IMG/VR virus record: IMGVR_UViG_3300027851_000084
Location: 1 to 32,546 of that record
Source: a virus
Direction: 5' to 3' (one strand)
DNA: 32,546 bases
A model generated the notes under the pieces. The model ran no database searches. It saw only the letters and a list, made by a program, of their open reading frames with translations, and was not told the origin of the DNA. This document shows, in pieces, positions 15,007 through 15,339 of the stretch. The stretch's first letter is position 1, and every line of letters begins with the position of its first letter. A program made the position numbers and the translations under genes.

Positions 15007-15056
15007 TTGCTTTACCCCGTTCTGGCCCCTATACTGGTAACTGGTTCGTATTGCAA
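15007..15056. promoter_or_regulatory. Face-to-face overlapping promoters
   Basis: Leftward: TTGCAA (15051-15056), 17-nt spacer, TATAGG (15028-15033), reading into the 107-aa gene. Rightward: TTGCTT (15007-15012), 17-nt spacer, TATACT (15030-15035). The two -10 elements share the bases CCTATACT, so they should exclude one another. The tandem ACTGGTAACTGGT sits between the leftward -10 and -35. Confidence 0.5.
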
Positions 15057-15108
15057 TCTCTTACAATACAAAAGCTAGCCGTTACCCGTGTAGCGGTTTT
15101 AGTTTTTT
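15042..15108 (+). ncRNA. Putative small RNA of about 67 nt
   Basis: The rightward promoter above would start near 15042. A terminator hairpin follows: CCGTTAC (15079-15085), loop CCGT, GTAGCGG (15090-15096, one G-U pair), then TTTTAGTTTTTT (15097-15108). No protein is encoded. The 5' end is exactly the first copy of the 13-bp repeat whose second copy is at 15181. This could be a regulatory or replication-control RNA. Confidence 0.45.
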
Positions 15109-15245
15109 ATAGGGCCTAAAAATGGCGGCAATGCTAGCTAAAGCACGCCAGTTTAGGCTTAATGTTTTCCCGCCTCGCAATGGTTCGTATTGCTCGGCAC
15201 TACCTAATATAGCGGCTGGAATTGTTTGCGGCAAGCTCGAGTTTA

Positions 15246-15284
15246 TTATGCTTGTGCATAACCTGTGGACAAGCCTGTGGAATA
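15246..15284. repeat. Cluster of DnaA-box-like sites with a palindrome
   Basis: TTATGCTTGTGCATAA (15246-15261) is a perfect inverted repeat with a 4-nt centre. Its right part is TTATGCACA on the minus strand, a full match to TTATNCACA. TGTGGACAA (15264-15272) and TGTGGAATA (15276-15284) follow in the same orientation with one or two mismatches to TGTGGATAA. Spacing is 11-12 bp. Confidence 0.5.
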
Positions 15285-15339
15285 CTCCAGCGCTACTACT
15301 GTAAGGGGTCGGGGGATAATTCGTGCTGCTTAAGGTTTG

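Follow-up and report, generated by a model that had tools for sequence, protein, structure and literature searches.

Is the 316-bp stretch between positions 15007 and 15322 of this phage genome an origin of replication, a switch for the early genes, or both? The window, by which we mean the whole stretch of DNA analysed, is the IMG/VR record IMGVR_UViG_3300027851_000084 at its full length of 32,546 bases. An earlier note, made from the sequence alone, had likened the region to plasmid or phage control regions in which an RNA and an initiator govern replication. The likeness of layout stands, and the predicted RNA, the opposed promoters and the DnaA-like array are all conserved, but the designation as an origin is unsupported. 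We lean, by no great measure, towards the view that this is a conserved control region at the point of divergence of the phage genes, in which an antisense-controlled early leader is combined with an array for the docking of DnaA.

The phage genome and its single divergent junction

Genes for portal, terminase, scaffold, coat, tape measure and amidase are recognised, and the genome is therefore that of a tailed phage. The evidence for conservation comes from one distinct relative, G001 (IMGVR_UViG_3300025018_000086, 32,399 bases), which shares the gene order of the window and has an identity to it of 74-81% in the majority of aligned blocks, the lowest value being 69% and the highest 88%. A 127-bp repeat is found at the ends of G001. 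Its sequence is a permutation of that of the window, and aligns on either side of the point where the window's ends would meet; the map is therefore circular. In TerL, the 146-aa gene and the control region, the window has a 100% match in a 16-kb record (3300006033_000164). Beyond G001 and this identical fragment, scans of viral contigs using TerL, coat, the SSAP-like protein, the 146-aa protein and DNA patterns gave no further close relatives, and a genome scan with the 198-aa protein as query returned none. The latter protein (6174-6770, minus strand) has an apparent zinc-finger N-terminus and a weak match to a transcription regulator, and is 96% identical to its G001 counterpart, far above the phage average.

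All of the recognised genes are leftward save that for an Rpf-like transglycosylase. Leftward transcription around the circle starts at ~15.2 kb and stops near 16.4 kb, which makes this region the only junction at which transcription diverges. It does indeed part the sole rightward gene from the leftward block, as had been proposed, the Rpf-like ORF (15323-15988, plus strand; PF06737, E = 1.9e-32) being alone among the rightward genes in matching a family. It has 79% identity to G001, its Rpf domain is nearest to Corynebacteriales, and an extended -10 element, TGGTATAAT (15338-15346, plus strand), has the same sequence in G001. The G001 gene has in-frame stops upstream and no ATG, GTG or TTG near the RBS, and an ATT may serve as its start. 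At the start of the gene in the window (15359-15385) there is ATC/ATA where G001 has ATT, plus an ATG at 15359.

Two further observations concern the genome at large. The 9-mers containing CGATCG are strongly over-represented in both genomes, with 13 occurrences of AGCGATCGC against 0.9 expected. At the starts of several late genes (28729-29442, 18456-18857 and 18987-19319) a TACAAT or TATAAT -10 element lies directly 5' of the ATG, which suggests leaderless transcripts.

A predicted antisense RNA within the early leader

The predicted leftward early promoter is TTGCCG-17-TATATT (15206-15234, minus strand), and TTGCAG-18-TATTAT occupies the same position in G001. Transcription would begin at ~15199, giving a structured leader of ~190 nt (15007-15199, minus strand) that precedes the GTG of the first early gene, encoding a 107-aa protein. 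The fold of 15007-15245 has z = -3.0. Covariation lends weak support to the consensus fold of the leader, with one compensatory pair and two one-sided changes between the only two genomes compared.

A second promoter, TTGCTT-17 bp-TATACT (15007-15035, plus strand), is predicted within the leader. Its hexamers (15007-15012 and 15030-15035) and their 17-bp spacing are invariant in G001, and the spacer has diverged. Sequence and conservation together support the positions of both promoters. The rightward transcript probably starts at ~15042, and the tandem ACTGGTAACTGGT described previously is present at 15033-15045, with the same sequence in G001. The opposed promoters were originally thought to share their -10 bases. 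Opposed promoters are found in both genomes, but the shared -10 does not survive: a leftward promoter placed on the -10 of the rightward one (TTGCAA-17-TATAGG) lacks the last T of its -10 and has an altered -35 in G001, and that at 15206-15234 is the better candidate.

The product of the rightward promoter, here called sRNA-1, is predicted to be an RNA of ~65-67 nt (15042-15105, plus strand) with two hairpins, ending at an intrinsic terminator and antisense to the leader, which holds its complement. The predicted fold has an energy of -19.2 kcal/mol and z = -3.8. Hairpin 1 (15048-15069) is made by pairing GTATTG with CAATAC, and the terminator hairpin (15077-15098) is followed by its T tract (together 15077-15108). 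The stems are invariant in G001, and in each loop there are substitutions and small indels between the genomes. The loops of an antisense RNA that targets its own complement may drift, as they do in plasmid incompatibility RNAs. If the target of sRNA-1 is its own complement, fixed stems and diverged loops are what would be expected. Identity between the genomes is 87-93% in the block 15030-15120, and 47-61% at 15210-15330. The small RNA claimed in the earlier note has become a specific prediction, with a terminator and hairpins that both sequence and conservation support. It belongs to no known family in Rfam, and no tRNA or tmRNA was found.

A 13-bp direct repeat, TGGTTCGTATTGC, had also been pointed out. 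Shuffling the 316 bp gives a repeat of this length in 0.2% of cases, and G001 retains both copies, so that it can be accepted. Copy 1 (15042-15054, plus strand) is at the predicted 5' end of sRNA-1, and copy 2 (15181-15193, plus strand) lies, when read on the leftward strand, just past the predicted early start site; the repeat thus marks where each of the two opposed RNAs is predicted to begin. On the leftward strand copy 2 can form the hairpin GCAAT-ACGAACC-ATTGC, the ACGAACC loop of which complements the 5' tail of sRNA-1. The perfect 8-bp palindrome ATTGCAAT (15050-15057), included in the same description, is attributable to chance. It is expected in 83% of shuffles and is absent from G001.

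We propose that the leftward early programme of the phage, which is tailed and has a circular map, is launched from this control region. The promoter at 15234-15206 would generate a leftward mRNA carrying the structured leader, and the promoter at 15007-15035 would generate sRNA-1, fully complementary to that leader. sRNA-1 would repress the early operon as pSK41 RNAI and pT181 RNAI repress rep genes, with pairing perhaps leading to attenuation, RNase III cleavage or interference. We infer both that the RNAs are made and that their pairing represses. A switch in which binding of sRNA-1 sequesters the RBS of the 107-aa gene was considered and set aside. In its simple form it is unsupported because folds with the sRNA-1 region forced unpaired leave the predicted access to the RBS unchanged, with no drop in either genome.

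A conserved array of DnaA-type boxes

Between the divergent promoters lies a tandem triplet of DnaA-type boxes (15253-15284, minus strand), with gaps of 2 and 3 bp and starts 11 and 12 bp apart. The box TTATGCACA (15253-15261) is a perfect TTWTNCACA, and TTGTCCACA (15264-15272) and TATTCCACA (15276-15284), on the same strand, each have one mismatch. In G001 the triplet comprises TTATGCACA, TTTTACACA and TTATCCACA, all perfect and with the spacing found in the window. The earlier proposal of three DnaA-type sites at 11-12 bp spacing is thus upheld, one of the three being perfect in the window and all three in G001. There is one such triplet per genome, and 120 Markov-shuffled genomes contain none. 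Identity between the two phages in the surrounding sequence is only ~60%, and perfect boxes at equal spacing in G001 in that setting provide what we judge to be the best evidence for a real array. The low-affinity DnaA sites of E. coli oriC are arrayed in one orientation, spaced by exactly 2 bp along one face of the helix (PMC4451416).

In the model that we prefer, three same-strand boxes on one face of the helix, 5' of the early promoter, would form a dock for host DnaA or a factor of like specificity. Docked DnaA would make early expression, possibly with replication, dependent on the host initiator. The array has the support of sequence and conservation; we infer that DnaA binds there, and likewise the sign of its effect. 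Against the combination of antisense control and DnaA array stand the mismatches of two window boxes to the consensus, and a 107-aa protein that cannot be recognised as an initiator.

Similar arrays are found elsewhere. A pattern scan of viral contigs revealed near-perfect tandem triplets at no fewer than 118 viral loci, where by a rough estimate chance would provide far fewer than one. Among the loci listed, 80 of 118 triplets are outside any long reading frame, and the DNA fetched for them has no DnaA domain IV signature (0 of 118). The genes flanking triplets in other viral loci include those for RusA and RecE-like nucleases, helicases and a primase. A firm enrichment of genes beside the triplets is not concluded, as Erf and RecE are also present among genes farther off. 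Within the phage itself there is a second conserved pair of perfect boxes, TTTTGCACA and TTATCCACA, with a 2-bp gap (32314-32333, plus strand). The pair is the same in G001, and lies 5' of the scaffold gene on the far side of the circular map.

Does the region act as an origin?

The array raises the possibility of a true origin, where host DnaA oligomerises on the triplet, melts the DNA and loads the host helicase, sRNA-1 sets the frequency of initiation, and the 107-aa protein is perhaps DnaD-like. We regard this as an alternative of some substance, although an unlikely one. No polymerase, primase, replicative helicase or known initiator is recognised among the proteins scanned, so that use of host DnaA and dependence on the host replisome are plausible. 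The geometry of the array is like that of oriC, and the recurrence of triplets in viral loci with no dnaA signature also speaks for an origin.

An origin would be expected to have a cluster of DnaA boxes with cooperative spacing, which is present, together with an adjacent AT-rich unwinding element, which is not. DNA stability at the boxes (15.2-15.3 kb) is average, no unwinding element adjoins the triplet, and the closest low-stability DNA is ~600 bp away at 14603-14662 in both genomes. Cumulative GC skew, which had been suggested as a check, does not locate an origin. It is flat, with an amplitude in either genome no greater than shuffling gives, and its maximum and minimum fall elsewhere. 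The existence of the second conserved box pair at 32314-32333 also weighs against an origin at the triplet.

The protein that might be the initiator under RNA control is equivocal. The first early gene (14683-15006, minus strand, GTG start) encodes 107 aa with 69% identity to G001 over 103 aa. The protein has no Pfam or PHROG family, no PDB sequence match and no confident match to an initiator of solved structure, and this last point tells against the origin. Its structural model is mostly helical (pLDDT 71), and the top matches among viral structures are unnamed phage proteins. Two weak structural hits favour the origin, one being a 'DnaD-like replication protein' (prob 0.72, E = 0.76) and the other a protein described as 'replication initiation and membrane attachment' (prob 0.44, E = 1.9). 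In short lists against solved structures, no DnaD entry is present among the matches listed. As to the initiator of the earlier comparison, there is a weak DnaD-type structural resemblance in a protein that lacks a recognisable initiator family.

A second candidate RNA complementary to early ribosome binding sites

A terminator-like hairpin with a T tract at 14686-14738 (plus strand), overlapping the 3' end of the 107-aa gene, marks a second candidate RNA, sRNA-2. Its candidate promoter is ATGCTT-16-TATAGT (14651-14678, plus strand), with TTGCTT-17-TATTAT in G001, and the spacer contains a DnaA-type box, TTTTCCACA (14660-14668), that is conserved in G001. The hairpin is very stable (z = -6.6), and its core is identical in G001 from the 5' arm through the T tract. 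Over the core the same codon is kept at 16 of 18 conserved amino acids, compared with 30 of 53 elsewhere in the 107-aa gene.

The 16-nt loop GGTTGGCGCATCTCCG (GGUUGGCGCAUCUCCG; 14702-14717, plus strand) is complementary to GGAGA(n)GCGCC at the RBSs of four early genes in the window and of three orthologues in G001, with loop-target pairing of -21.9 to -24.9 kcal/mol. The candidate targets, all on the minus strand, are the RBSs of the 146-aa gene (GGAGAAAATGCGCCATG, 14573-14589; -24.5 kcal/mol), the 537-aa protein gene (GGAGATTGCGCC...ATG, 13680-13694; -22.1), the KwaB-like gene (GGAGATAGCGCCATG, 10438-10452; -24.9) and the 75-aa gene (GGAGATATGCGCCATG, 7002-7017; -21.9). Shuffled loops had means of 0.5 and 0.6 target genes, and none of 500 matched both observed counts.

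This allows a tentative and rather doubtful extension, in which two tandem antisense-strand sRNAs run the early programme. sRNA-1 would be a plasmid-type countertranscript and the loop of sRNA-2, an RNA of ~50 nt, would block four RBSs, with host DnaA, caught by the tandem array and the dispersed boxes, setting the switch and possibly firing replication. Alternatively, the motif at the RBSs might be read by an RNA-binding protein. If the extension is true, several phage early genes would be silenced by one small RNA, sRNA-2, by way of their common RBS motif, a simple example of its kind.

Some properties of the early genes may be recorded here. The gene at 9343-10440 (minus strand), the RBS of which is the KwaB-like target above, has a KwaB-like (Kiwa defence) domain and 88% identity to G001. 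The 537-aa protein (12076-13689, minus strand) has a ~130-aa match to Geobacillus phage E2 proteins and, judged by eye, resembles a single-strand annealing protein. A 15-bp motif, ACTCGCTTGTGTTAT, is found at early promoters (13715, 14601, 14623 and 7051 in the window, with matching places in G001). The copies at 14601 and 14623 form a direct repeat, 22 bp apart, and the motif could be an operator or promoter element.

Operators and by-products

The boxes could instead be operators of a phage regulator and not DnaA sites, comparable to the one-orientation stoperators of cluster A mycobacteriophages. Stoperators are defined by dispersed sites in one direction (PMC9283540, PMC6550527), and many dispersed one-orientation sites beyond coding expectation are found here. 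The box TTATCCACA occurs eight times in the window, always on the plus strand (7117, 7418, 9743, 10560, 12230, 19356, 28016 and 32325), where codon-preserving shuffles give a mean of 1.28 and a maximum of 3. Judged by matching flanks, single boxes at 7117, 7418, 9743, 10470, 12230 and 14660 are common to G001, as is the 32.3-kb pair, and several sites are near gene starts. We nevertheless consider operators improbable, given that the motif is the exact bacterial DnaA box, that the triplet is on the strand opposite to most other sites, and that theirs is the strand already favoured by codon usage alone. Moreover, no repressor or integrase is recognised among the proteins scanned, a set that leaves out several small ORFs.

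It is very improbable that the conserved block is chiefly an insulating terminator and leader, with sRNA-1 a by-product and the boxes without a role; a leftward promoter far from consensus would suit this, but the conservation of promoter spacing, of box spacing and of stems, the last with diverged loops, is not easily accounted for in the absence of selection.

Comparison with known systems

Metagenomes are rich in phages with no recognisable replication initiator, and little is known of how their replication starts and their early genes are timed. A compact, conserved region joining plasmid-style antisense control to an array for host DnaA offers a concrete model that can be tested. The occurrence of triplets in so many viral loci that have no dnaA signature suggests that phage use of host DnaA may exceed the few worked examples.

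The RNAI of pSK41 is ~83 nt in length, with two stem-loops and a 5' tail, and is counter-transcribed to the rep leader (PMC5703833). As in pSK41 RNAI and the RepA_N staphylococcal plasmids, pT181 RNAI and pIP501 RNAIII, the antisense RNA predicted here is short and has two stem-loops. As in pSK41, it would be transcribed against an untranslated leader from a promoter of its own inside that leader; in the plasmid the leader belongs to the gene that comes first in the replication region (PMC5703833). Two hallmarks of antisense control are found, at the level of sequence a promoter within the leader that yields a short antisense RNA, and on the predicted fold at least two stem-loops in that RNA. 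Unlike the pSK41 kind, our region is borne by a phage, and the 107-aa protein is much shorter than a Rep and falls in no Rep family that can be detected. Nor is a switch that sequesters the RBS predicted for the phage leader. There is a DnaA-box array here, whereas according to a review none has been detected in the staphylococcal plasmids (PMC5703833).

The array itself resembles those of E. coli oriC in having same-orientation 9-mers on one helical face, 2 bp apart in oriC (PMC4451416), but it has only three sites, with gaps of 2 and 3 bp, and no adjoining unwinding element. The sites share with cluster A stoperators their short asymmetric form, single orientation and dispersal through the genome. 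They differ in that the phage site is a DnaA box, the repressor is unrecognised and lysogeny is not indicated.

Antisense control and DnaA come together in B. subtilis ArrA, an antisense RNA in the dnaA 5' UTR, the production of which is inhibited by DnaA (PMC12112137). The phage would similarly combine an antisense leader RNA with control by DnaA, and here a DnaA-type box is located inside the candidate sRNA-2 promoter. The target differs, being the early operon of a phage with no recognised DnaA instead of dnaA itself. Because the controlled gene is no known Rep, repression is predicted only and the unwinding element expected of an origin is absent beside the boxes, we do not claim membership of any of these systems. 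The likeness would lie in the mode of working, that of pSK41/pT181 copy control together with that of ArrA.
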